Positions 1 to 29,437 of a stretch of DNA of 35,226 bases are shown one piece after another. The DNA comes from Candidatus Peribacteria bacterium RIFCSPHIGHO2_02_FULL_51_15 (lineage in GTDB: Bacteria > Patescibacteriota > Gracilibacteria > Peribacterales > Peribacteraceae): positions 1 to 35,226 of the forward strand of contig MFXU01000051.1 of assembly GCA_001788965.1 (NCBI GenBank). Reading direction: 5' to 3'. The first letter of the stretch is position 1, and each line of letters starts with the position of its first letter. The translations under genes and the position numbers were made by a program. The notes under the pieces are model-generated. The model did no database searches. It was not told the origin of the DNA and saw only the letters and a program-made list of their open reading frames with translations.

Positions 1-890
1 GCGAGGCTTTGTTTGCCGAGTATGAATTCACGGAAGCGGGAGAGCATGCGGGTCTTCATCGGAACGACTGTCAGGGCTGGAAGAGCTGCGGAAGGGGCGT
101 GTTTTTCTCCTCTTTCCTCAGCCAAAAGCCCGGCCCAGAGGGATTCGAAAGATGCGCGTTCCACCCTGGCCAGCTCGGGGTAGCGCAGGAAGCAGGCGGT
201 CTGATCGGTGAAATTTATACAGGCGATGGTCCCGTCGACGATCGTTTTTTCGAAATCGATCGGAGACTCGGACTCGTGGACGAGAAGCGTCTTGCGATAT
301 TCAAACGCGTCCTTAGACTGATATCTGCGGGCGAGCGTGGTATCCGGCGCGATGATCCGTTGGAAGATCTTGCGGTATTGGCGCTTTCTGAAGAGATCGA
401 CACGGAAAGCGCGGAGAGGATCTTCTTCGGCTTTGTAGAGGATCGGCGTGAAGGTGAGCAGCTCCTGCCCGGTCTCGAGAAGCTTCAGGTACGCCTGCTC
501 GATGCCGTCTGTCCCATGGAAATATTCCAGCTCGGGCTTGTGACGGTCCAGCTTCAATGAATTTACGAAAGATGAGAAATCCTGGTGACGGCGGTCGAGC
601 TGCTCATGGCGCTTCTTCATATCGCGCTCCATCCATTTGATGATCGTATCGAGCGAGTGGATGGAATATTTCGGCTGATCGTTCAGCATGTCCCGCTGCG
701 CTATCCCCTTGACCAAGAGTTTCTTCATCGCCTGATCGAGCACACCGGTAGACTTGCCGGTCTTGGTCGCGAGCCCCCGTAGCGTCATGGCATCCTCCTC
801 GACCAGCTTCTTTAGCAGCAGTATCTCGGTCCCCGAAAACCCGGCTTCTTTGAGCGCTGTCTCGATGCTGGTGGGAAGGATGGAATTCAT
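1..890 (-). CDS. TrmB-like HTH transcriptional regulator, 3' end beyond the window
   Basis: Hand translation from the ATG at 890-888 stays open to the window edge: MNSILPTSIETALKEAGFSGTEILLLKKLVEEDAMTLRGLATKTGKSTGVLDQAMKKLLVKG... The winged-HTH-like start followed by an effector-like region resembles TrmB proteins. Absent from the ORF track because no stop lies inside the window. Confidence 0.7.
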   Translation of the reverse strand, partial: MNSILPTSIETALKEAGFSGTEILLLKKLVEEDAMTLRGLATKTGKSTGVLDQAMKKLLVKGIAQRDMLNDQPKYSIHSLDTIIKWMERDMKKRHEQLDRRHQDFSSFVNSLKLDRHKPELEYFHGTDGIEQAYLKLLETGQELLTFTPILYKAEEDPLRAFRVDLFRKRQYRKIFQRIIAPDTTLARRYQSKDAFEYRKTLLVHESESPIDFEKTIVDGTIACINFTDQTACFLRYPELARVERASFESLWAGLLAEERGEKHAPSAALPALTVVPMKTRMLSRFREFILGKQSL

Positions 891-7003: not shown

Positions 7004-7942
7004 TCAAACCAAAAACCCCCTCTTCATATCCAGCTTCTGCGAAGAGACGATCTTTTTGTTTTCCATTAATTTCACTTCCCAGCTCAGATTAATCTTTACT
7101 TTCAATCTGGTATCCGAGACCAGCTTCAGCCGCAATTTTTGTCCCGGTTTTATCGGAACCGGTTCTAAAAGCGGCAGATAAATCTGTTCCCAATGCGTCG
7201 GCGGATCATGGGGACCGGTTGAGAGATTTATTCCCGGTACCAATTCGGCATTCCACCATAAAGCGAAACCGTAAACGTTGTAGAGACGCCCCGCCGGGGC
7301 GTCTCTACCATCGGATTCCCAAGTTACCGAGGCCTTCCTAACACTCGAGTTCTTCTTTTTAAAATCTATCTCATCCCATTTCTTCGCACTGATAATTTCT
7401 TCGGGACGGATTTTTTTGACGTATATGTTGTTAAGTGCGATTTCCCGGGCTTCCTTCATGTCCAGATCGTAACCCACATCGGCCATCACATCGATTTCTT
7501 TTTGTAAGCGATCCGAGATTACCGGTGCGACGAATTGTTCGATCCGGCCCGGGATTATGATTCCGCCTGGTTTCAGAAACCGCTTGGCGTCCTCAATGAT
7601 CTCGATGATGTTTTCCTCCAGTGCGTAATTTCCAAGTATCTCGGCGACCATCATGTCCGCCGGCCCGGCCTTCGTCACGTCCATCGAATGTTTGTTTATA
7701 AACGTGCAATTTTTGATTCCGTTACTCATGGCCAGTTTACGGCTGACACCGGATATATCACCGTAATCAATCAAAGTGCAATGCTTCGCTCCCATTCTGG
7801 AAGCCAAAAATGAAAGAAAGCCGGTGCCCGAACCGACATCGACGATTGTCGTCTTCCCGGATTGTACTGATTGTTTTAGGGCTCGATAGAAGGCTTCGTT
7901 GCGCACCTTGTCACCCAGTAATTTGCGTTGAAGCTCAATCAT
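7004..7942 (-). CDS. PRMT-like class I SAM-dependent methyltransferase
   Basis: TTIVDVGSGTGFLSFLASRMGAKHCTLID, ADMMVAEILGNYALEEN, and THWEQIYLPLLEPVPIKPGQKL resembling the PRMT THW loop. Start at MIELQRK; the upstream ORF extension is low-complexity DNA. Confidence 0.75.
   Translation of the reverse strand: MIELQRKLLGDKVRNEAFYRALKQSVQSGKTTIVDVGSGTGFLSFLASRMGAKHCTLIDYGDISGVSRKLAMSNGIKNCTFINKHSMDVTKAGPADMMVAEILGNYALEENIIEIIEDAKRFLKPGGIIIPGRIEQFVAPVISDRLQKEIDVMADVGYDLDMKEAREIALNNIYVKKIRPEEIISAKKWDEIDFKKKNSSVRKASVTWESDGRDAPAGRLYNVYGFALWWNAELVPGINLSTGPHDPPTHWEQIYLPLLEPVPIKPGQKLRLKLVSDTRLKVKINLSWEVKLMENKKIVSSQKLDMKRGFLV
7280..7308. repeat. Palindrome GTAGAGACG(n)CGTCTCTAC inside a CDS
   Basis: GTAGAGACGCCCC-GCC-GGGGCGTCTCTAC; same family as 33269-33297. 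Confidence 0.85.
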
Positions 7943-8093
7943 AAGAAAGTAAGGAAAGTAAGGAAAGTAAGGTAAGGGAGGTAAGGGAGGTAAGGGAGGT
8001 AAGGTAAGTGACAAAAAACATAATTTTACCTTCCTGACCTTCCTGACCTTCCTTACCTCCATTACCTTCCTTACTTTCCTTACTTTCCTTACC
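7942..8093. repeat. Tandem-unit inverted repeat (GTAAGGAAA / TTTCCTTAC)
   Basis: Left arm of repeated gtaaggaaa/gtaagggag units, right arm of complementary accttcctt/actttcctt units. Confidence 0.8.
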
Positions 8094-10336
8094 TAAATCA
8101 ACGGTTCTTCAAAAGTTTCTTCCTCCGGTATCTCATCCTTCTTCGGCGGCTCACTGGCCGCTTCGTCCCATTTTCGGAGGCTTTCCTCCACTTCTTCCTT
8201 CGGCCGGCAGTATTTTTTTCGCGACGTCTCAATGATTTCCCGCGTGTGATCTTCCCCGATCCGAGGCACGTCTACGGTCCGCCCGGAAAACGCCTCGCGG
8301 ATCTCGCCTTTGACCGACATCTTGGTATAGAACTCACGGACGCCGAGGTTGATGATGTCGCGTTCCTTGAAGATCGGCTCGTATTCTTTTTCCAGCACTC
8401 CGGCATCCTCGGCGCCGACCCGGAAGCTGATCATGGAGCCGACGTTGCCGAAGACCGTCTGGCGGATCTTGCTGCTCAGCTGGCCCATGTATTGGTGCGC
8501 GATAGTCAGGTTCAGGTGATATTTGCGTGCTTCGGACAGGATCTCGTAAAACGTGTCGGTGGCGAAGTTCTGGAATTCATCGACGTAGAAATAAAAATCG
8601 GTGCGTTCCTCCTCCAGCACGTTGGCCCGGCTCATGGCCGCCTGGTACATCTTCGTGATGATCATGGAACCAAGCAGTGACGAGTTTTCCTCTCCCAGAA
8701 GCCCTTTACTGACTTTCATCAGCAGGATTTTCTTATTGTCCATTATTTCGCGGATATCGAAACGCGTCACCGGCTGGCCGATGATGTTGCGGATCATGTT
8801 GGTCGCGACGAACTGGCCGACTTTATTTAGCAGCGGGGTGATGGCCTCGGCGTCGAATTTCTCGGACCAGGCGGCGAACTCCGAGACCCAGAAGCTCTTC
8901 ACCACGTTGTCCTGGATCCGCGCCACGATTTTCTGACGGTAGTTTTTGTCGGTGAGCATCTTGAGAATCGACATAACCGTCGTGTTCGGGCTGTCTAAGA
9001 GGGCCAGCGTCGTGTAGCGCAACACATGCTCCAGGCGGTAGGTCCAGTTGTCGCCGAAAAGCTTCTTGAAGATGTCGAGAAAACCGATGGTGAGCTGCAT
9101 CTTGTAGGCTTCCTCCACCTTCTCCAGCGGATTGAATGCGATCGGATTCTGGATATCTCCCGGATCGAATAAGACCACGTCGTTTACCCTGTTTGTCGGT
9201 ACGAACCGCAGGACATTATCCACCAGATCTCCGTGCGGATCGAGTACGGCTACTCCCCGACCCCGATTCAAATCCTCGTGAACCAAAAGCTCAAGCAGTT
9301 TGCTTTTGCCGGAGCCCGATTTTCCGACGACATACAGATGCCGCCGGCGGTCATCCAGCCTCACGCCGAAGCGGACGAAGTTGTTGTGGTAATTCGTGAC
9401 GCCGAAAACGCTGACATCGTCGCCCTCGCCCTCCCGCGGCAGGTCCTGCGGCGGAGCGGATTTTCGTGCCAGAACATGGACGATGTGCGACACGAAATCG
9501 GCATTCGGAAAATGGAACAGCGTCGCCACTTCCTTGCTGCTCTGGATAAATGCGGAAGCATGCGTCCGTTCACGGAAGCGCTTGAGAAAGGACGTCGAGT
9601 TTGTGACGCCCGTCGCCTTGAATCCGTTGATATCCGAATCGTTGAAATGATAAAAACTGTTTTTTATGGCTTCCAGCTTGCGGCTGCCTTCTTCGAAACT
9701 TCGCGTCACATAGGTGCACCTGATGGAAACCCGGAACGGTTTCATCTGATCCTTGGTTTTCGCGGCTTCCGCCCGGACCGTCTGGATCCCCTTCCGGCCT
9801 TCTTTCCTGAGCCGGTCTCGGATACTGAAGAACTTTTTCAGCGCCGCCAGCTTGTAACGGATATTTCGCAAAAAGTGGTAAAGGGCGCTGTCCGGATGCG
9901 GCTCGACGATTATCTGGACCCAGACCTGCTCGCCGCTTTCGATCTTCGAGATTACGGAGAAAAGCCGCGACATGCTGTCTTCTTCAAATCTTTCATAAGT
10001 TTTGATCGGATAAACGTCGCGCTCTTTCAGGATCAATTCACAGCCGGCAAAATTGTTGTGCTGCGGATTGAACCAGGCGGTGTAGTCGTTGGTCTCTTTT
10101 ATCTCGGCGTCCGGAAAGGTGGCGTAGATCATGCCCTCTATCGTCTCCTTGTATTTCTCGTCCATGACGGCATAAAAATACGTGTACTGCTCGTAGCCGA
10201 AATATTCGAACGAAAACCGCTCGCGGGTGATGGTATTGCGCAAGCTTTCCAGCAAATCCTGGAACCTGGATTCCATTTTTTTGTTCTCATCCGTCCCCTG
10301 GGGCACGATGATGTGGAGGTAGCGCAGATCGGCCAT
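8093..10336 (-). CDS. Type IV secretion/conjugation coupling ATPase (TraD/VirD4-like)
   Basis: HLYVVGKSGSGKSKLLELLVHEDLNRGRGVAVLDPHGDLVDNVLRF (Walker A), FYFYVDEFQNFATDTFYEILSEARKYHLNLTIAHQYMGQL (Walker B and motif III). Confidence 0.88.
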   Translation of the reverse strand: MADLRYLHIIVPQGTDENKKMESRFQDLLESLRNTITRERFSFEYFGYEQYTYFYAVMDEKYKETIEGMIYATFPDAEIKETNDYTAWFNPQHNNFAGCELILKERDVYPIKTYERFEEDSMSRLFSVISKIESGEQVWVQIIVEPHPDSALYHFLRNIRYKLAALKKFFSIRDRLRKEGRKGIQTVRAEAAKTKDQMKPFRVSIRCTYVTRSFEEGSRKLEAIKNSFYHFNDSDINGFKATGVTNSTSFLKRFRERTHASAFIQSSKEVATLFHFPNADFVSHIVHVLARKSAPPQDLPREGEGDDVSVFGVTNYHNNFVRFGVRLDDRRRHLYVVGKSGSGKSKLLELLVHEDLNRGRGVAVLDPHGDLVDNVLRFVPTNRVNDVVLFDPGDIQNPIAFNPLEKVEEAYKMQLTIGFLDIFKKLFGDNWTYRLEHVLRYTTLALLDSPNTTVMSILKMLTDKNYRQKIVARIQDNVVKSFWVSEFAAWSEKFDAEAITPLLNKVGQFVATNMIRNIIGQPVTRFDIREIMDNKKILLMKVSKGLLGEENSSLLGSMIITKMYQAAMSRANVLEEERTDFYFYVDEFQNFATDTFYEILSEARKYHLNLTIAHQYMGQLSSKIRQTVFGNVGSMISFRVGAEDAGVLEKEYEPIFKERDIINLGVREFYTKMSVKGEIREAFSGRTVDVPRIGEDHTREIIETSRKKYCRPKEEVEESLRKWDEAASEPPKKDEIPEEETFEEPLI

Positions 10337-12525: not shown

Positions 12526-12569
12526 AGTTTCACATAAAACTTGTGAAACTGTGAATATGGCTTTATAAT
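12526..12569 (+). promoter_or_regulatory. Sigma70-type promoter with overlapping inverted-repeat operator for the TrmB gene
   Basis: AGTTTCACA (12526-12534) / TGTGAAACT (12542-12550) perfect 9-bp arms; TTGTGA (12541-12546), 17 nt, TATAAT (12564-12569). Confidence 0.7.
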
Positions 12570-12576
12570 GATGTCA

Positions 12577-13308
12577 ATGGCTTACACAGTCCTCGAGTCG
12601 TTTGGTCTATCGGCTGAGGAAGCCGGTCTCTATACCGAGCTTTTGCCGCTGGGTGACGTACCGGTAATCGATCTGATCAAGCTGACCCAAAAACATCCAC
12701 AAATCATTTATCGTCTGCTCGATTCCCTCTCCGCCAAAGGTCTGGTGCTGACTGAGATCAGGAAGCACCGGAAATACGTCCGGGCCGAGGACCCGGAAGT
12801 ATTCAAAAAATCACAGGAACAAAAACTGGAGGCGCTGAAGGCGCTCCTGCCCGAGCTGAAGGCCCTGCAAAACAAACCCAGGGAAGCCACGGTCCGGGTG
12901 GCCAGAGGCGAAGAAGCGGTAAGGAATCTGCGGCGCCGGGCATTTGACGAGCTGCCCGAGGGGGGCATGTTTTACATTCTCAGCGCTTCGGGCACGAGAT
13001 TTTACGAAATTATGGGAGGCACGCTGGATGGCATTGAGAAGCACCGGGTGAAACGGAAGATCCGGAAACGGCTGCTCGCCTTCGAGAGCCAAAGGAAGAT
13101 GCTCGAAAAAAACGAGAAATGGGATTTGATTGAGATCCGGTATTTGCCGGAAAGCAACTCCGTGCCTTCGAGCACGAATATCTTCGGGAATACGGTTGCG
13201 ATTCAGATTTGGCTTTCTGATCCCATTGTCATAATGATCGAAAGCCCGGAAGTGGCTCAGAGCTACAAGGATTATTTCGGGAGTTTGTGGAAAACTGCCA
13301 AGCAATAA
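12577..13308 (+). CDS. TrmB family transcriptional regulator
   Basis: MAYTVLESFGLSAEEAGLYTELLPLGDVPVIDLIKLTQKHPQIIYRLLDSLSAKGLV... HTH plus C-terminal effector domain. Start chosen at 12577 from promoter geometry; the ORF track start is 12568. Confidence 0.85.
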   Translation: MAYTVLESFGLSAEEAGLYTELLPLGDVPVIDLIKLTQKHPQIIYRLLDSLSAKGLVLTEIRKHRKYVRAEDPEVFKKSQEQKLEALKALLPELKALQNKPREATVRVARGEEAVRNLRRRAFDELPEGGMFYILSASGTRFYEIMGGTLDGIEKHRVKRKIRKRLLAFESQRKMLEKNEKWDLIEIRYLPESNSVPSSTNIFGNTVAIQIWLSDPIVIMIESPEVAQSYKDYFGSLWKTAKQ

Positions 13309-15129: not shown

Positions 15130-16815
15130 TCAATAGACTTCTTTCAAATAGCATTCCTCGCAAAAAACCCTCTCCTGCCGTTCCGGTGAATAGCTCGTCT
15201 CAATCGCTTGCCCGCATTTGTCACACTCCCGGTCCCAGAGCTTGCGGGGATTTCTGAGAGCCATACGCCGCCTGTGCCGCTCGTCCGGATGGAAATGCGG
15301 GACTGGAAGATCCATCCTCCGGTAAAAATCCAGCTCCTGTTTCACGATCCTGAAAGGCCGTTTCGTGGCTTCGCATTCGATCGCCCAGTTCAGGATATCG
15401 TCGGGGATTTCGTCGATATTCGCCTGCAAGTCTTTAGCCAGAATGATTTTGGAAACCTGAGGCGCTTCATCCGTTTCATCTTTCCATTTCCAACCCCTCT
15501 TCAAGACCTCCTCTTTCGTAAGCGGAAAAGCTTCCTCCGCGACAGTTTCATTGTAGGCAAAAAGTGAAAGCTGCACCGGTGGAAACTCACCCCATTCCCC
15601 AGATTTCCGCATTTGATCGATAAGTTTCGGAACAAGAGTCTCATATTCATCCCGGCTGTATTGCCTGTTCAAAATACAATACTTCTTATGGTGAAGATTC
15701 ACGCAGCCAAAACAATTTTCACAGAAATGGCAGTTGTAACAATAAAAAATATCCTTGTCCCCGTAACCCCAGTTACCGAAAAGGCAATGATATGACCCGA
15801 TGCCGTAATTGTTGCACTCATAAAGCAACTCGGCCGGCAAGCCAAAGAATGACACATCCATGCTTTCTTTTACGTCAGCGATAAATTGGCAGTGCGCGCA
15901 ATCCTGGGACTGACGGGTATTGAAACAGTCCCGACAATTTTGCGATTCATAAATGTAGTTGCCGGTGCAGTTTTCAGTCATCCGCTGATATGACCAGGGC
16001 ACCGGAATCTTTATCAGCAATTCTTCGAAAGATTTTTGGAGTGCAGCTTGCGCCTCAGGATTTGTCAGAAGATTTTTCAGCCGTTCTTCATATCCTTCTT
16101 TCGTGAGCCTTTCATTTAACCAGCAATACGAAGCGTTTCTCATGCCCACGCAGCCGACACAATTGGTGCAATTCAGGCAGTAAGCCAGATAGCGGCTCGT
16201 CTGGCAGTTCGCCGAGGTCCGGCAGTAGGTCAGATCGTAACCGCGGAAACATTCGTTGCATTCATAGCAGCGTTCACTCCGGCGTACGCTGGAACAGTCG
16301 ATGCATGACGTGGAGTTTTGGATCCAGTAACTGTAGAGACAGTCTTCATTGAAACTGCCGCAAAAAAGCATGTAACAATTTTTGTTGTAGGTCGCGTTGT
16401 GCGTGTACTCGCTGTTTTCGCTGTTTACGTTCAGCAGATTGATATGCGGTGTGACACCGATCAGGTGCTTTAGCTGATCGAAAAAAGGTCTGGAAAAATT
16501 AACCGGTTCTCCGAAATCCAAACCGTCCCAGCTTTCCGACCACCAGGCCGGATTTTCATAAACGATATTGGGTTTATCCGGAGAAAAAGCCGAAACCATT
16601 TGTTTTCCGGTTTTATCGCACTTTCTATGGTAAAGCTTGCGCTCATTTCGGAAGGCCAGCCGCCTCTGATACCTGCAATCCGGACATAATGTCGGGGGCG
16701 GGATCAATTCTTTTTTCCCGTTGAAAACCGGAGAAACGGATTCGTAAAATGCTAGGTCGCTGTCGGTTATTTCGAATTCAGTTCCACACCAGGGGTTTGC
16801 ACAAGTACGTATCAT
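15130..16815 (-). CDS. Cys-rich dual zinc-ribbon family protein, paralog P2
   Basis: MIRTCANPWCGTEFEITDSDLAFYESVSPVFNGKKELIPPPTLCPDC...CFGCVNLHHKKYCILNRQYSRDEYETLVPKLIDQM...CDKCGQAIETSYSPERQERVFCEECYLKEVY. Confidence 0.95.
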   Translation of the reverse strand: MIRTCANPWCGTEFEITDSDLAFYESVSPVFNGKKELIPPPTLCPDCRYQRRLAFRNERKLYHRKCDKTGKQMVSAFSPDKPNIVYENPAWWSESWDGLDFGEPVNFSRPFFDQLKHLIGVTPHINLLNVNSENSEYTHNATYNKNCYMLFCGSFNEDCLYSYWIQNSTSCIDCSSVRRSERCYECNECFRGYDLTYCRTSANCQTSRYLAYCLNCTNCVGCVGMRNASYCWLNERLTKEGYEERLKNLLTNPEAQAALQKSFEELLIKIPVPWSYQRMTENCTGNYIYESQNCRDCFNTRQSQDCAHCQFIADVKESMDVSFFGLPAELLYECNNYGIGSYHCLFGNWGYGDKDIFYCYNCHFCENCFGCVNLHHKKYCILNRQYSRDEYETLVPKLIDQMRKSGEWGEFPPVQLSLFAYNETVAEEAFPLTKEEVLKRGWKWKDETDEAPQVSKIILAKDLQANIDEIPDDILNWAIECEATKRPFRIVKQELDFYRRMDLPVPHFHPDERHRRRMALRNPRKLWDRECDKCGQAIETSYSPERQERVFCEECYLKEVY

Positions 16816-17531
16816 CAAATTCCGGAAGAATCTAAGAGTGTCGTGGCATGGCCGTCCCGGCCATGGGGACACGGGCTTTGAGCCCGTGCGAAAAAATGAT
16901 CTAAATTTTCTTTTTTCAATTGTTCCTCCGGTATTCGCCATCTCCATTCCCAGTTTTTTAGTCCCGCGAGTTCGGGATTGCTCCAAGTGTATTCGATACT
17001 GTAGTCCAGCTGCTCCTGTGACCGTATGAGCCTGTCAAAGTACTCGCTTTGCCAAAATTGGCCCCGTTTCCCAAGTAGTGCGTTGGACCTTTTGGCTGAG
17101 AATGATTTCCAGGAACAAACGATCGAGGAAAGTGTATGTTCGGAAAACGGCTGTACCACGACATGCACATGATTCGGCATCACGCACCATGCAAACAAGC
17201 GGTAACGCTGACCTTCGAAAAAACGCAAAGCTCCTGCGATTTCCTTTGCAATATTTTCCTGCTTCATCCAACAAGCCCCATGACCACCTCGCAGGAAACG
17301 GTCTACTGACTCCGAATGCAATTTCAGCAGTGCAAGTCTTTCCTGGTAGGTCAATTCACGTTTTTGCCTTTGAGCCATCATTATTATGTCTCTTCGTTCA
17401 TTTTCCCACTCCCTGATTTTTTCCTGTGGAACCGAGTCGCACAACCTGAAACGTAAACAATAGATTCCACCGAGTTTGCTCCAATGTGGCAGATAGGCAC
17501 CCCGCCGTTTCTGGACTATTGAGCTTTCCAT
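16815..17531 (-). CDS. REP-associated tyrosine transposase (RAYT, IS200/Y1 HUH-type)
   Basis: CVMPNHVHVVVQPF (HUH), GQFWQSEYFDRLIRSQEQLDYSIEYTWSNPELAGL (Tyr region). Internal start MESSIVQ preferred; the ORF track start is a GTG inside the terminal repeat. Confidence 0.85.
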   Translation of the reverse strand: MESSIVQKRRGAYLPHWSKLGGIYCLRFRLCDSVPQEKIREWENERRDIIMMAQRQKRELTYQERLALLKLHSESVDRFLRGGHGACWMKQENIAKEIAGALRFFEGQRYRLFAWCVMPNHVHVVVQPFSEHTLSSIVCSWKSFSAKRSNALLGKRGQFWQSEYFDRLIRSQEQLDYSIEYTWSNPELAGLKNWEWRWRIPEEQLKKENLDHFFARAQSPCPHGRDGHATTLLDSSGI

Positions 17532-17597
17532 TGTAAAGATTCTACAACACGCATGGCCGCAACGGCCATGTCCCCATGCCCGGGACGGGCATGCCAC
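16843..17597. mobile_element. RAYT element bounded by inverted double-hairpin repeats
   Basis: Left GTGGCATGGCCGTCCCGGCCATGGGGACACGGGCTTTGAGCCCGTGCG; right GCATGGCCGCAACGGCCATGTCCCCATGCCCGGGACGGGCATGCCAC. Confidence 0.75.
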
Positions 17598-19601: not shown

Positions 19602-21302
19602 TCAGTACACTTCTTTCAGGTAACACGATTCACAAACCACTTTTTCCGGCCGCTCCGGCGAATAGCTTGTGGTTATTGGCTTTTGGCAATTGGCACAATT
19701 CCTTTTCCAGAGCTTTCGCGGATTCCGGAGAGCGCGGCGGGCCGCATGCCGGACTTCGAAATGCCAGCGCGGAACAGGGACTCTGAGGCGCCGGTACAGC
19801 TCCAGCTCGGCTTTCTGCAATCTGAAAGGTTTCCTGGTTTTTTCGCATCGGATTGCCCAGTTCAAAATATCATCGGGGATATCATCAATTGAATCAGGTA
19901 ACTGCGATGCCTCTATTACCCGAGTCACATTTAACGGCTCATCTACTTGATCGCGCCATTTCCAGCCCCTTTTCAGGACTTCTTCCCGGGGCAGTGGATA
20001 GTAATCCTGGGCCACGGTCTCGTTGTAGCCGAAGGCGGAAATTTCGGGAGGAAAGAAATCGCCCCATTCTCCGTCGGTTCTCATGCACTCAACGATTTTG
20101 TGAACGAGCTCCGAATATTCGGACTCACTATATTTCTTGTTCAAAATACAATGAGAGTTCTTTTTGATAGCCGTGCAACCGAAAAGATTGTTGACGCCGG
20201 TCATGCAAAAAATCGAAGAGATCACATTGCTGGCATTGAGTGCAGTGTAATAACACCCGATAAGATTTTGGGACCCCGCCCCGATATAAGCGCAGTTATA
20301 GGCCAGTGTCAGGCGGTCGCCCCAGGCATCGACATCCTGGCAATCCTGACCGCCCATCATACAGCCGGTGCAGAAGCGGCAATCCCGCATGCCGATGCAG
20401 TCGAAACAGTAGCTGGAATCTTTGCAGCTCAGGATATTGTCGCCAGTTGCGTTTTCGTTCATCACGCCGCGCAGGGCCTTCCCAGGATGTTTCAGAAAAT
20501 TTTCCAGCGCCAGTGCTTTGAGCTGCCGGACGCCTGAATGAGTATGGAGATTCATGGCCGCTTTGCGCTTCAAATAGTCTTCTTTAGAAAACGGCTCATT
20601 GAAAATGTAATACTCCTTCTGAACCAGATTCACGCAGCCGATACAGCTTTTGCAGGAAACGCAGTCGAGCAGAAAAACCGACTCGGAACAATTTTGGCAG
20701 AAACTTGAATACCTCAGATCGAAACAGTTCTGGCAATGGATGCATTCGTAGCAGAGCTCCGATTCAGTCAGGTAAAGAAAGTCGCAGCAATCCTTCATTT
20801 TTACGTAACACTCGCCATAGAAACAATCCTGTGCCTGCTCGCCGTCGAAGATGAAATAGCAGTTTTTCAGACGGTAACCGTCATGCGTGTAATCGCTGTT
20901 TATATCGTCTTTGAAACGAAAAGTCGACATCTTCGGTATCGCGGCATAGAGCTCGCCAAACTGCTCGAAAAAGGGCCGGTTTTGATCATAGGCACGGCCG
21001 AAAGAGAGCGGGTCCCAGTTGTCTCCCCACCAGCATTCGGGGCAATAGACGGCATGCGGACCGTCCGGCGTGTAGATGGAAATTATTGGACGCTTACAGA
21101 GATCACAGGAACGTTTGTATAGATTACGCTCGTTTCGTTGAGCCAGTCTCCGCTGCTGACGGCAGTCATAACAAAGCCGGGGCGGCGGAAGCGCAAGCTT
21201 TTTTTCACCGATTACCGGGGAAACTTTGTCGAGAAATTTTAGGTCGCTTTCGGTGACCTCGAAGGACGCTTGACACCATGTATTTGAGCAGAGTTTTCGC
21301 AT
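19602..21302 (-). CDS. Cys-rich dual zinc-ribbon family protein, paralog P4
   Basis: MRKLCSNTWCQASFEVTESDLKFLDKVSPVIGEKKLALPPPRLCYDCRQQRRL...CDLCKRPIISIYTPDGPHAVYCPECWW ... CANCQKPITTSYSPERPEKVVCESCYLKEVY; TATAAT at 21310-21315. Confidence 0.95.
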   Translation of the reverse strand: MRKLCSNTWCQASFEVTESDLKFLDKVSPVIGEKKLALPPPRLCYDCRQQRRLAQRNERNLYKRSCDLCKRPIISIYTPDGPHAVYCPECWWGDNWDPLSFGRAYDQNRPFFEQFGELYAAIPKMSTFRFKDDINSDYTHDGYRLKNCYFIFDGEQAQDCFYGECYVKMKDCCDFLYLTESELCYECIHCQNCFDLRYSSFCQNCSESVFLLDCVSCKSCIGCVNLVQKEYYIFNEPFSKEDYLKRKAAMNLHTHSGVRQLKALALENFLKHPGKALRGVMNENATGDNILSCKDSSYCFDCIGMRDCRFCTGCMMGGQDCQDVDAWGDRLTLAYNCAYIGAGSQNLIGCYYTALNASNVISSIFCMTGVNNLFGCTAIKKNSHCILNKKYSESEYSELVHKIVECMRTDGEWGDFFPPEISAFGYNETVAQDYYPLPREEVLKRGWKWRDQVDEPLNVTRVIEASQLPDSIDDIPDDILNWAIRCEKTRKPFRLQKAELELYRRLRVPVPRWHFEVRHAARRALRNPRKLWKRNCANCQKPITTSYSPERPEKVVCESCYLKEVY

Positions 21303-25233: not shown

Positions 25234-25373
25234 TTAAATTGCTAAATTGTTAAATTGTTAAAAATACATTCTTAAAAACTTGCGCTCCGCTTGCTTGCCG
25301 GCCGTAGCCTTCAAAACGGATAGTAGAGTGGAAATTGGCGAAGGCTGGCGAACAATTTAGCAATATAGCAATC
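25234..25373. repeat. AT-rich inverted repeat (GCTAAATTGTTAAATTGTT family), copy 1
   Basis: TTAAATTGCTAAATTGTTAAATTGTTAA ... AACAATTTAGCAATATAGCAATC. Confidence 0.7.
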
Positions 25374-26235
25374 AAACCGTTCTCGGCACCGGGAAAAGCT
25401 TCTCGCGACGAAGATAAACGGCAACCAGTAAAATCATCCCGAAAACGATCAATCTGAGCGGACCCAGAGCACCGGAGGGAAAAGGCAGGAACCTGATGGC
25501 CTCCTTCAGAATCGTAAGCAAGATGCACGAAAGAGCGACTCCGGGTATGCCGCCCCCCATGCCGGCGACGATGAACATTATGTACATGATCATGAAATAA
25601 AACGTGAGGTCGCTCGGATGCACCAGCCCGATGTATTGCGGATAAAACAAATTGGCCAAAACCGAACCGACCGCGCTCAGTACAAAAACAGTCGTATAAA
25701 CCTTTTCACGACTGATTCCGAGACTCCGGGCGTGGGAGGGATTTTCGGCAAGCGCCGTAAGTCTCCGGCCGAGCGGTCCACGGTCGATCTTCCAGAGAAA
25801 AAATCCCCAGATCAACGCAACAGTCGAGGTAACCAGGGCGAAATAACGTGGATCTCCAAGCCCGGGTGCGCGGGGAATGTGAGCGATGCCCATGGCGCCG
25901 CCGGTCAGGTCGATCCAATTCAAAACAACCGCCAGCAACGCGAGGTGCAATGCGATAGTCAAAATGCCGAAGCTGTCAGAGTCCAGCCTGAAAGCCAGCC
26001 ATGAGAAAACGAGCGCAAGCAATATCGCAATGCCCAGACCGGCGATAAACCCGAGAAAATACCCACCGCCGTTCATAAGCACCAGAAAGATCCCATACGT
26101 CGAAACAAGAGAAGTGCCCATAATTCCGAAATGCAATATTTTTCCACGCCCGAGTATGAGCCCGTAGGGCAGCCCGTTCATCAGAACGACGGAAATGGAA
26201 ATAACCAGATGCAGGAAAAAATTCATATCAGGCAA
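25372..26235 (-). CDS. livM: Branched-chain amino acid ABC transporter permease LivM-like
   Basis: Multi-TM; ALAENPSHARSLGISREKVYTTVFVLSAVGSVLANLFYPQYIGLVHPSDLTFYFMIMYIMFIVAGMGGGIPGV. Confidence 0.88.
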   Translation of the reverse strand: MPDMNFFLHLVISISVVLMNGLPYGLILGRGKILHFGIMGTSLVSTYGIFLVLMNGGGYFLGFIAGLGIAILLALVFSWLAFRLDSDSFGILTIALHLALLAVVLNWIDLTGGAMGIAHIPRAPGLGDPRYFALVTSTVALIWGFFLWKIDRGPLGRRLTALAENPSHARSLGISREKVYTTVFVLSAVGSVLANLFYPQYIGLVHPSDLTFYFMIMYIMFIVAGMGGGIPGVALSCILLTILKEAIRFLPFPSGALGPLRLIVFGMILLVAVYLRREKLFPVPRTV

Positions 26236-27103
26236 AACGGGATGTCCGGCCGAAAAGGCCGGTCGGTTTTATAAGAAGCAAAACTATGATCAGCATCAAG
26301 GCCACGGAACCCTGGTATCCGGCCGGCAGGTAATATCCGAACCATTTGATGCCGACGGCCAGCTGTTCGATGGCGGCGATGAAATAAGACGCTATCACCG
26401 CTCCCCAGATGTTGCCCTTTCCGCCGGCGATGAGGGCGGCATAGGCTTTGATAGTTATGGTAAAGCCCAAAACCGGAGTCAGGTTCTGGTCTATGCCCAC
26501 ATAGATTCCGGCTATCGCCGCCAGCGTTCCGGAGATGATGAATACCAGGCGGTGCAGGAGGGCCGAAGAAATCCCCAGGCTTTCGGCTGCCTGACTGTGC
26601 GCGACAGTTGCCCGGATCCGGCGGCCAATGGAAGTGGAATGCAAGATCCAAGCGGTGGCCGAAAGCAAAACAACTGTAAAGATGATCAATTTGATCTGCT
26701 CCATCGAAATCACCGCTGAGCCTAAATGAACCATTTCTTTGGCGCGGATCAGTATGCTGCGCGTCTGCTCCTTGAAAATCAGCTGGATCAAACCGTCCAG
26801 GATCTGCGAAAGCGCGATGGTCGAGACGAGCGGCAGGAGCGGATGACGCTTATAAAATGGCCGGACGGCGATCTCGAACGATAGCCATGAAACCAGTGCG
26901 CCGCAGACGATCCCGCCCAATATGCCGACGGGCAGCGGAAGCCCCAAAGGCTGGACCAGCCACCAGGTGACATATCCGCCCACCAGCGCAAATTGTCCCA
27001 GAGCGAGATTGAAGACCCTCAGCACACCGTAAACCAGCGCCAGCCCCGTTGCCATGATCGCGGCGAAGGAGCCGGCAATCAACGTATTAACGAGAAGCTG
27101 CAT
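26228..27103 (-). CDS. livH: Branched-chain amino acid ABC transporter permease LivH-like
   Basis: GSFAAIMATGLALVYGVLRVFNLALGQFALVGGYVTWWLV and ATVAHSQAAESLGISSALLHRLVFIISGTLAAIAGIYVG; overlaps livM by 8 nt. Confidence 0.88.
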   Translation of the reverse strand: MQLLVNTLIAGSFAAIMATGLALVYGVLRVFNLALGQFALVGGYVTWWLVQPLGLPLPVGILGGIVCGALVSWLSFEIAVRPFYKRHPLLPLVSTIALSQILDGLIQLIFKEQTRSILIRAKEMVHLGSAVISMEQIKLIIFTVVLLSATAWILHSTSIGRRIRATVAHSQAAESLGISSALLHRLVFIISGTLAAIAGIYVGIDQNLTPVLGFTITIKAYAALIAGGKGNIWGAVIASYFIAAIEQLAVGIKWFGYYLPAGYQGSVALMLIIVLLLIKPTGLFGRTSRFA

Positions 27104-27134
27104 GTGAGTGAGAGTATACAGAAATTGTCAAACT

Positions 27135-27199
27135 GCTAAATTGTTAAATTGTTCGCAAGCGTGATGCGCGGTTGCCTGCCAGCAATTTAACAATTTAGC
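27135..27199. repeat. AT-rich inverted repeat, copy 2
   Basis: GCTAAATTGTTAAATTG (27135-27151) / CAATTTAACAATTTAGC (27183-27199), perfect 17-bp arms. Confidence 0.8.
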
Positions 27200-27229
27200 A
27201 ATGTTCCAGCTATTCCAAAACCCAGGAAA

Positions 27230-28354
27230 TCACTGCAGGGAGATTTCTATATCCTCAATTTCCACGATCTTCCCGTCCCGGAATTCCTTCAGCGCGTAAC
27301 CGATCCCCACTACGTCCCCGTTTTTGTCGAAGGATATCGTGCCTGCCGCGCCTGCGTAGTTCATGTTGTAAAGGGCGTCTCTCAGAGCTGCGCCGTCAAG
27401 AGTTGGAACCTGTTTCAGAGCTTCGGCCAGCACTCCGGCTGAGTCGTAGCCGAGGGTGGCGTAACTCAGGTTGGCCTTTGGCTCGCCGTATTTCGCGCGG
27501 AATTTCGCGGCGAAAGAGTCGGCTCCGCCTTCGCCCAGCTTGTTTGAAGTATTGATCACCCGCATGCCCTCCACTGCCTCAGGAGCCAGCTGACCCATCG
27601 TGGCCGAATCGGAAGTGTCGGAGCCGGCAAACGGCTGCTTGATTCCAAGTTCCCGGGCCTGCTTGACCATTTCCACGTTTGTCGCATCAGTTTGCCCGTT
27701 GATGAAAATCACATCGAAGTCTGTATCCTTCAGTCTTGTAAGAAGCGATCGGTAATCCTTGGTACCCTGGTCAACCAGCTCATCGAAGGCGAGGGAAGCG
27801 CCAGATCCCATAGTGTTTTTCACCGTGGTCCGAAGCCCCTGGCAAAAATCTGTGTTCTCGGTGATGATGCCTATCTTTTTGTAACCCTCGCGCTCGAAAT
27901 ATTTACTTAACTCTCGGCCTTTGTTCGCGTCGCTCGGAGACGCGCGGAAGACATAGTCTCCCGCGTCGGTGACCGCCGGAGCCGTCGAGATCGCCGAAAG
28001 CAATATCATCTTCGCGGGTTCGGTCACGCTGGCGGCAGCCAGAGTTTCGGACGAGCAGACCCCGCCGAGTATGGCGGCGACTTTGTCGATATTGACCAGT
28101 TTCTGCGCCGCGGAGGTGGCGTCAGAGCCATTGCATTTGGCGTCCTCGCTGACCAGCTCGATTTTTTTTCCGTTCACTCCTCCGGCGTCGTTTATTTCAT
28201 CTATCCTGAGACGAATAGCATTCAAGTTGTCCTGTCCGTAAGACTGCCCGTCACCGGTGAGCGGCCCGATGGTGCCGATTTTTATGACATCTTTGTTCGA
28301 TGCGCAGGCAGCGAAAAACAAAGCGCCCGACACGACAAATAATTTCTTATTCAT
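27230..28354 (-). CDS. livK: Branched-chain amino acid ABC transporter substrate-binding lipoprotein LivK-like
   Basis: Lipobox-like MNKKLFVVSGALFFAACASN; IKIGTIGPLTGDGQSYGQDNLNAIRLRIDEINDAGGVNGKKIELV. Confidence 0.92.
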   Translation of the reverse strand: MNKKLFVVSGALFFAACASNKDVIKIGTIGPLTGDGQSYGQDNLNAIRLRIDEINDAGGVNGKKIELVSEDAKCNGSDATSAAQKLVNIDKVAAILGGVCSSETLAAASVTEPAKMILLSAISTAPAVTDAGDYVFRASPSDANKGRELSKYFEREGYKKIGIITENTDFCQGLRTTVKNTMGSGASLAFDELVDQGTKDYRSLLTRLKDTDFDVIFINGQTDATNVEMVKQARELGIKQPFAGSDTSDSATMGQLAPEAVEGMRVINTSNKLGEGGADSFAAKFRAKYGEPKANLSYATLGYDSAGVLAEALKQVPTLDGAALRDALYNMNYAGAAGTISFDKNGDVVGIGYALKEFRDGKIVEIEDIEISLQ

Positions 28355-28484
28355 AAATAAGCGGGGAGATAAATAAAGCGCGATTCATTTTACTCATAAT
28401 AAGGATTAATAGAATTGACAGATGAAATTTTATTCATAAGAAAAAATCTGGCTTTAATAATCATTACTAGAGTTTTTGGGAACA

Positions 28485-28559
28485 TTGTTATATTGCTAAA
28501 TTGTTAAATTGTTGACGCAAATCCATGTGTCGCTTGCGAACAATTTAGCAATATAACAA
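28485..28559. repeat. AT-rich inverted repeat, copy 3
   Basis: TTGTTATATTGCTAAATTGTT (28485-28505) / AACAATTTAGCAATATAACAA (28539-28559), perfect 21-bp arms. Confidence 0.85.
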
Positions 28560-28607
28560 TTTAACAATTCCTCTGACATTGATTAAACGACCGCAGTTCA
28601 CCCGAAT

Positions 28608-29342
28608 TTAAGTAACCGGGTCCGCCCCGAAATAAATCTCTTTCAGCTTCGCATGCGAATGGATTTCTTCCGGTTTGCCTTCCAGGACTTTTTCGCCGAG
28701 ATCGAGAACGATCACCCGATCGCAAATCCTGCGGATGAAGGGCAAATCATGCTCGATAATCAGTATCGTCCGGCCTTCTTTTTTAAGTAACCGGATGAGG
28801 TCCGAGATCTGGCTGGTCATTTTCGGCGATACGCCGGCCGTAGGTTCATCGAGAAGCAACAATTCCTTGCGGGCGGCGAATGTGCGAGCCAGCTCCAAAA
28901 GGCGCATCTGCCCGCCTGAAAGGCTGCTCGCTTTCTTTTTTGCGCAATGGTCGAGGTCAACCAACTTCAGCGTTTCGTTGACCTTTTTTTTCAAATCGCC
29001 GAGCGCCGTCCGCTGCTCTTTCGGAAGCGACTCAAACGCTACCAGAACATTGTCAAAAAGGGTCATGTCGCGAAAAATGCCGAAGTTCTGGAAGACCCGG
29101 CCGATGCCGATGCGCGCCCGCAGGCTCGGGGGCATCGTTGAAATATTTTCTTCCCGGAAGAAAACGGATCCCGAAGTCGGTTTCAGGAAACCGGAAATCA
29201 CGTTGAAGAAAGTCGTTTTCCCGGAACCATTGGGCCCGATGAGCCCCACCACCTCGCCGGGCTCGACATCCAGATCGATACCATGGAGTATTTTCTGCGA
29301 CTCAATCGTGAGCGAGAGATTTTTGACGGAGAGGAGAGGCAT
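28608..29342 (-). CDS. livG: Branched-chain amino acid ABC transporter ATPase LivG-like
   Basis: VVGLIGPNGSGKTTFFNVISGFLKPTSG (Walker A), SSLSGGQMRLLELARTFAARKELLLLDEPTAGVSP (signature and Walker B). Confidence 0.92.
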   Translation of the reverse strand: MPLLSVKNLSLTIESQKILHGIDLDVEPGEVVGLIGPNGSGKTTFFNVISGFLKPTSGSVFFREENISTMPPSLRARIGIGRVFQNFGIFRDMTLFDNVLVAFESLPKEQRTALGDLKKKVNETLKLVDLDHCAKKKASSLSGGQMRLLELARTFAARKELLLLDEPTAGVSPKMTSQISDLIRLLKKEGRTILIIEHDLPFIRRICDRVIVLDLGEKVLEGKPEEIHSHAKLKEIYFGADPVT

Positions 29343-29437
29343 CGGGCCCATATTACCAGAATTAATAAGCGGTGATTCGTTCTCGGATCAATTCCAAAAC
29401 TACGGGAAATTTTTCAGATGTTTCACGACTCCTTGGT

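Follow-up and report, generated by a model that had tools for sequence, protein, structure and literature searches.

What kind of protein is encoded nine times by a contig of Candidatus Peribacteria bacterium RIFCSPHIGHO2_02_FULL_51_15, and with what does it work? The window, that is, the whole stretch of 35,226 nucleotides that was analysed, contains the paralogs P1 to P9. P4, the protein studied here, has an intact ORF. Searches of its genome (1.18 Mb) gave 19 family matches, equal to about 17 genes or fragments. Pfam, NCBIfam and PHROGs have no model that covers the family, and the literature searched yielded no description of it. P4 had no PADLOC match to a known anti-phage defence system. 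The results presented below make the architecture A-B-B'-A' near certain and point to a neighbouring ATPase as the probable partner. Coordinates are given in Table 1.

Table 1. Features of the window; residue numbers refer to P4.
Feature	Position	Strand	Description
TrmB-type HTH regulator	3..890	-	second one of the window
PRMT-like gene	7004..8062	-	protein arginine methyltransferase-like
ATPase	8093..10336	-	soluble, VirD4/TraD/HerA-like, 747 aa; downstream of P1, conserved neighbour
P1	10702..12387	-	A-B-B'-A'
TrmB-type HTH regulator	12568..13308	+	divergent to P1, recurrent neighbour
P2	15130..16815	-	paralog
Transposase	16815..17597	-	Y1/IS200-type (PF01797)
P3	17611..19299	-	paralog
P4	19602..21302	-	A-B-B'-A', 566 aa; protein of this study
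P4 domain A'	19605..19859	-	residues 482-566; C-terminus YLKEVY
P4 unit B'	20088..20456	-	residues 283-405; second B copy with own cap
P4 unit B	20553..20900	-	residues 135-250; solenoid of 12-residue coils, cap a strand and helix of the NKxYCIxNxQxSKEEYE type
P4 domain A	21018..21302	-	residues 1-95; site 1 (C5/C10/C44/C47) and site 2 (C66/C69/C87/C90) intact
P5	21525..23198	-	paralog
P6	23554..25206	-	divergent paralog; N-terminal copy without either zinc site
ABC transporter genes	25372..29351	-	branched-chain amino-acid type: permeases, binding protein, ATPase
P7	29684..31402	-	paralog; both zinc sites kept in the C-terminal copy
Insert in P7	29725..29767	-	in-frame, partly palindromic
P8	31480..33168	-	paralog
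P9	33391..34893	-	paralog, 500 aa, without most of B
Insert in P9	33432..33474	-	same insert as in P7

The sequence-only reading had proposed that the two ends of each protein are copies of one zinc domain. Profiles of 242 sequences provided strong support. In hhalign, residues 1-100 of P4 matched residues 478-566 with a probability of 99.8, an E-value of 1.8e-27 and a score of 139.6; the alignment spans 78 columns with 32% identity. A match caused merely by shared cysteine-richness was ruled out. The best of 200 column-shuffled C profiles scored 21.2, the reversed C profile 16.5, and either end scored 11.5-15.9 against the middle region. Composition does not explain the match, since shuffles, reversed profile and the cysteine-rich middle all scored low. 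The predicted secondary structure agrees as well. An AlphaFold2 model of P4 based on a 122-sequence alignment (pLDDT 90.5, pTM 0.91) replaced an earlier model from nine paralogs, which was too weak (pLDDT 68). It places the secondary structure elements of both termini at aligned residues: helices at 18-27/497-506, 45-53/515-523 and 88-92/558-565 and strands at 62-65/532-535 and 72-75/542-545 (N/C). The proposal holds in general; with regard to 'each protein', P6 stands apart, as its N-terminal copy lacks both sites (CTHF and CA--).

A and A' correspond to the Pfam pair zf_Tbcl (PF13451) and zf_Tbcl_2 (PF23477). The first half has the CxxC ... CxxCR treble clef of zf_Tbcl, with all four cysteines (site 1) in 222 of the 242 N copies; the best single window sequence is below the Pfam cut-off (19.5 versus 24 bits). 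The second half has the CxxC ... CxxC treble clef of zf_Tbcl_2, complete (site 2) in 237 of the 242 C copies. In the genome search, P2 was above the cut-off (29.1 versus 27 bits) and most other paralogs were below. A stand-alone protein elsewhere in the genome (locus L100, 1465-1797) has both domains above cut-off, and small proteins like it were found across Patescibacteria. Profiles of these proteins matched the N copy with an E-value of 8.5e-20 and the C copy with 4.8e-25. These Pfam and stand-alone matches identify A as a module with two four-cysteine sites. The stand-alone proteins have the same order of the two sites and match both ends of the family. They differ in being about 100 aa long, single copy and free of a solenoid, with both sites intact, whereas the A copies of the family are mostly below the Pfam cut-offs. 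The last zinc site has a weak likeness to a LIM domain (E 0.004 in Pfam; E 0.0038 to the avian cysteine-rich protein in the PDB), but this match is below cut-off, covers about 30 residues and leaves the first half of the domain unmatched.

The two copies have lost opposite sites. Site 2 of the N copy is intact in 69 of the 242 relatives and site 1 of the C copy in 31; all four sites are kept in only nine sequences. The claim that the last CxxC of the N copy has been lost in most paralogs was borne out, with site 2 absent in 6 of 9 window paralogs and in 173 of 242 relatives. The site was lost as a unit, because the 173 degraded cases retain none or one of the cysteines, never two or three. Within the window, N site 2 is kept in P3, P4 and P5 and C site 1 in P7, while P6 has lost both N sites. 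In A' of P4, site 1 is lost (C486/T489/H514/V517) and site 2 is intact (C536/C539/C557/C560). The strongest coupling in the covariation analysis of the protein was C69-C90. Decay of the zinc sites was thus reciprocal: what one copy lost, the other tended to retain. The earlier picture of a sandwich of domain A, repeats and domain A' is supported by profile match and predicted secondary structure. It was incomplete: each A copy has two zinc sites, these were lost reciprocally and the middle is a duplication, B-B'.

This duplication was found with hhalign. P4 residues 130-270 matched residues 275-420 with an E-value of 9.7e-34 and a score of 190.7, and shuffles scored at most 22. The order is therefore A-B-B'-A'. 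B and B' share one end cap with the consensus NLRxKxYCIxNxQxSKEEYE. Cysteines in B are spaced by multiples of three residues at about 2.3-3.7 times expectation, and at less than 0.25 times expectation at other distances, out to 40 residues. The cysteine phase consists to 90% of small or hydrophobic residues and to 48% of cysteine; the other two phases have 0-1% cysteine. Strong couplings at a distance of 12 residues occurred at 147-159, 195-207, 207-219, 213-225, 295-307 and 371-383. In B', the three-residue spacing extends over short distances only and is more irregular. Couplings that would indicate contacts of A with B' or of A' with B were few. From periodicity, couplings and model, B looks like a beta-solenoid of 12-residue coils with cysteines at every third, inward position. 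The AlphaFold2 pLDDT is near 70 in B, a value that does not apply to B'. Foldseek found no match at E <= 0.001 to PDB and viral structures, including none of the Tenebrio type described below; the weak PDB matches were mostly parallel beta-helices. The B region of P6 weakly matches the phage family phrog_15341 (E 8.4e-6).

The antifreeze protein of Tenebrio molitor is a beta-helix with a 12-residue coil and inward residues 2, 5, 8 and 11 (PMC8038014). B resembles it in the number of residues per coil, in the inward orientation of every third residue and in a core of cysteine, serine and alanine, as judged from cysteine spacing, couplings and phase composition; the likeness is weaker in B' and is one of geometry, not of kinship. 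The antifreeze protein differs in being secreted and disulfide-bonded; B has up to four cysteines per coil.

A cysteine content of about 7% overall and 15% in B could also suggest proteins for the storage and buffering of zinc or other metals, selected for cysteine as such. The pattern of substitution speaks for a different use. Single cysteines of B are often replaced by serine, leucine, valine or alanine at inward positions, as in core packing, and so they resemble residues of a core more than ligands of a metal. The zinc sites of A, by contrast, mostly persist or disappear as whole units. Neighbours for metal transport or metal response do not recur. Metal storage is thus improbable as the function.

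Relatives are present in many Peribacteria and some other Patescibacteria, with 12-35 family matches in genomes of 0.8-1.4 Mb. The genes form head-to-tail arrays, which occupy the whole of contig C8 112793-144359 in genome G253 and two stretches of contig C1 in G136. No relative was detected in phage and plasmid collections. A recent, lineage-specific duplication within the window was rejected: each paralog is closer to a relative in another genome than to its own paralogs. The paralog set is old, since this applies to every member. In other Patescibacteria, separate A and B-B genes are adjacent, in the order ATPase, B-B, A at locus L139 and A, B-B, sigma-region-4/HARE protein, ATPase at L138; gene calls at distant loci came from a simple ORF finder. 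In a tree of A domains, N copies and C copies formed separate groups, and three unfused A domains (L139, L132 and L018 of the same genome as the window) grouped with the N copies with a support of 0.97; with about 90 columns and midpoint rooting, this tree is indicative only. Probably, the A-B-B'-A' protein was assembled from separate A and B-B genes. The A domain of L018 (1492-1746, minus strand, contig C48) is truncated or degraded, single and of the unfused type; it groups with A of L139, not with the stand-alone protein.

Further features of the array concern expression and rearrangement. TATAAT is located exactly 13 nt 5' of the ATG in P3, P4, P5, P7 and P8. In the 60-nt upstream stretches of 232 family genes, 9 of 12 occurrences were at -13. 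This position suggests leaderless transcripts with one promoter per paralog. P7 and P9, which are about 43% identical, carry the same insert of roughly 42 nt at the identical position, where it separates the halves of the final zinc site in A'. This insert is also present in relatives at L067 (DNA) and L080 (protein). It may be due to gene conversion or be a palindromic element that is coding. Repeated GC-rich palindromic stretches near the transposase, which lies between P2 and P3, read as short spurious ORFs. The ABC transporter genes are located inside the array, between P6 and P7. The arginine methyltransferase-like gene has a PRMT oligomerisation domain (PF22528, E 9.5e-13) and is unexpected for a bacterium with a reduced genome.

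The gene neighbourhood provided candidates for a partner. Among 369 non-family genes at 81 loci, only two neighbour families recurred widely. One comprises TrmB-type regulators, with 36 genes at 24 loci; the other is a VirD4/HerA-like ATPase (about 747 aa, 21 loci), whose gene in almost every case lies downstream in the same orientation. The third most frequent family reached 5 loci. The window ATPase matches PF02534 (E 1e-7) and PF10412 (E 1.2e-5), both above cut-off, and T4SS coupling proteins and HerA over the motor domain; PADLOC rated it weakly mad8/HerA-like. The neighbour ATPases resemble VirD4/TraD coupling proteins and HerA (PF02534, PF10412, PF01935) over the ATPase domain. Unlike T4SS coupling proteins, they are soluble, about 750 aa long and encoded away from T4SS channel genes. 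A hydrophobic segment for an N-terminal membrane anchor was absent in 20 of 21 ATPases, and no T4SS channel gene family recurs beside the arrays at the 81 loci.

The genome of the window encodes four such ATPases, and only the one in Table 1 adjoins the family. In 18 of 20 genomes, a family gene lies no more than 10 kb from the closest relative of this ATPase, and in 14 of 20 no more than 2 kb; of the other VirD4-like paralogs in these genomes, only 1 of 57 has a family gene inside the 10-kb limit. The Fisher p of 2e-14 is too optimistic, as the 20 genomes are related and not independent. In G046 the ATPase is away from family genes, and in G380 its gene lies at the end of a contig. Adjacency and fusion in five genomes outside Peribacteria are the stronger evidence. 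At L155, L156, L157 and L158, a single-B gene lies directly 3' of the ATPase, with a stop/start overlap at L157. At L159, ATPase and B are fused in one ORF of 629 aa, whose residues 28-440 share 40% identity with the L157 ATPase and whose residues 442-628 share 46% with the L157 B protein. The B of the fusion is of the single-B form and distantly similar to the B units of the window. Two BB loci, L140 and L185 (the latter in G253), are without such an ATPase beside them; these exceptions weaken a strict rule of ATPase-B linkage.

Many paralogs beside one coupling-type ATPase might also be its cargo, that is, substrates delivered by a VirD4-like motor and marked by an invariant C-terminal tail. 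C-terminal signals are common in T4SS substrates, and the family proteins end exactly 6 residues past the last CxxC in 234 of 242 cases, most commonly with YLKEVY. In the AlphaFold2 model, this tail belongs to a helix of the folded zinc domain. The missing membrane segment and channel genes do not suit delivery either, and fusion of a single-copy B to the ATPase would be expected of a subunit more than of a cargo. Secretion substrates are therefore an unlikely reading.

Binding of nucleic acids deserves slightly more weight, though the odds are still well against it as the main function. The two basic zinc modules would bind DNA or RNA, the ATPase would translocate it and the solenoid would be mainly a spacer. 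Treble clefs and basic motifs such as RNxRxLYxR often bind nucleic acids, relatives of HerA and VirD4 move DNA, and a predicted UvrD-like helicase adjoins the unfused BB-A genes at L139. A mere spacer is difficult to reconcile with a solenoid that is duplicated and that is the ATPase-linked part of the protein. Nucleic acid binding is compatible with a role as partner or adaptor and does not exclude it.

The family gains a testable role because its genes adjoin that of an orphan motor protein, with which, in one genome, a piece of the family forms a single ORF. It is somewhat more likely than not (about 0.55) that the family provides the soluble VirD4/HerA-type ATPase with a set of several partners or adaptors. 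The analysis establishes the duplications, the pattern of zinc sites, the 12-residue periodicity and the linkage by operon and fusion; a physical complex, the adaptor role, regulation and substrate are what we infer. The proteins, with their order A-B-B'-A', would be soluble, rigid bodies. A and A' are diverged copies of a treble clef module with two zinc sites, the opposite site usually having decayed in each. B and B' are copies of what looks like a short beta-solenoid, in which every third position points inward and holds cysteine, serine, leucine or other small residues; the conserved strand and helix of the cap close it. The paralogs may serve as alternative partner or adaptor subunits of one ATPase. 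B, the ATPase-linked part, would contact the motor, and the solenoid surface would make paralog-specific contacts. The zinc ends may act as clamps on the body and, with the YLKEVY C-terminus, present a constant surface for docking. Which paralogs are expressed is probably determined by the TrmB-type regulators encoded next to the arrays.

A published survey of Patescibacteria counted 5,713 VirD4-like proteins, of which only 148 are near virB4, and left another function open (PMC12102498). The operon and fusion link provides a concrete candidate partner for the many VirD4-like ATPases that are away from T4SS genes (PMC12102498), or for one group of them. More tentatively, an orphan, membrane-free relative of the conjugation coupling ATPases may have given rise to a new machine in Patescibacteria. 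Its specificity would come from 10-30 interchangeable adaptors, zinc-capped and with a cysteine-lined solenoid, whose genes form tandem arrays controlled by TrmB-type regulators. That two copies of one domain in a single chain lost opposite zinc sites is a clear example of subfunctionalisation, open to tests by mutation. Although so far undescribed, the family accounts for a considerable part of certain very small genomes.
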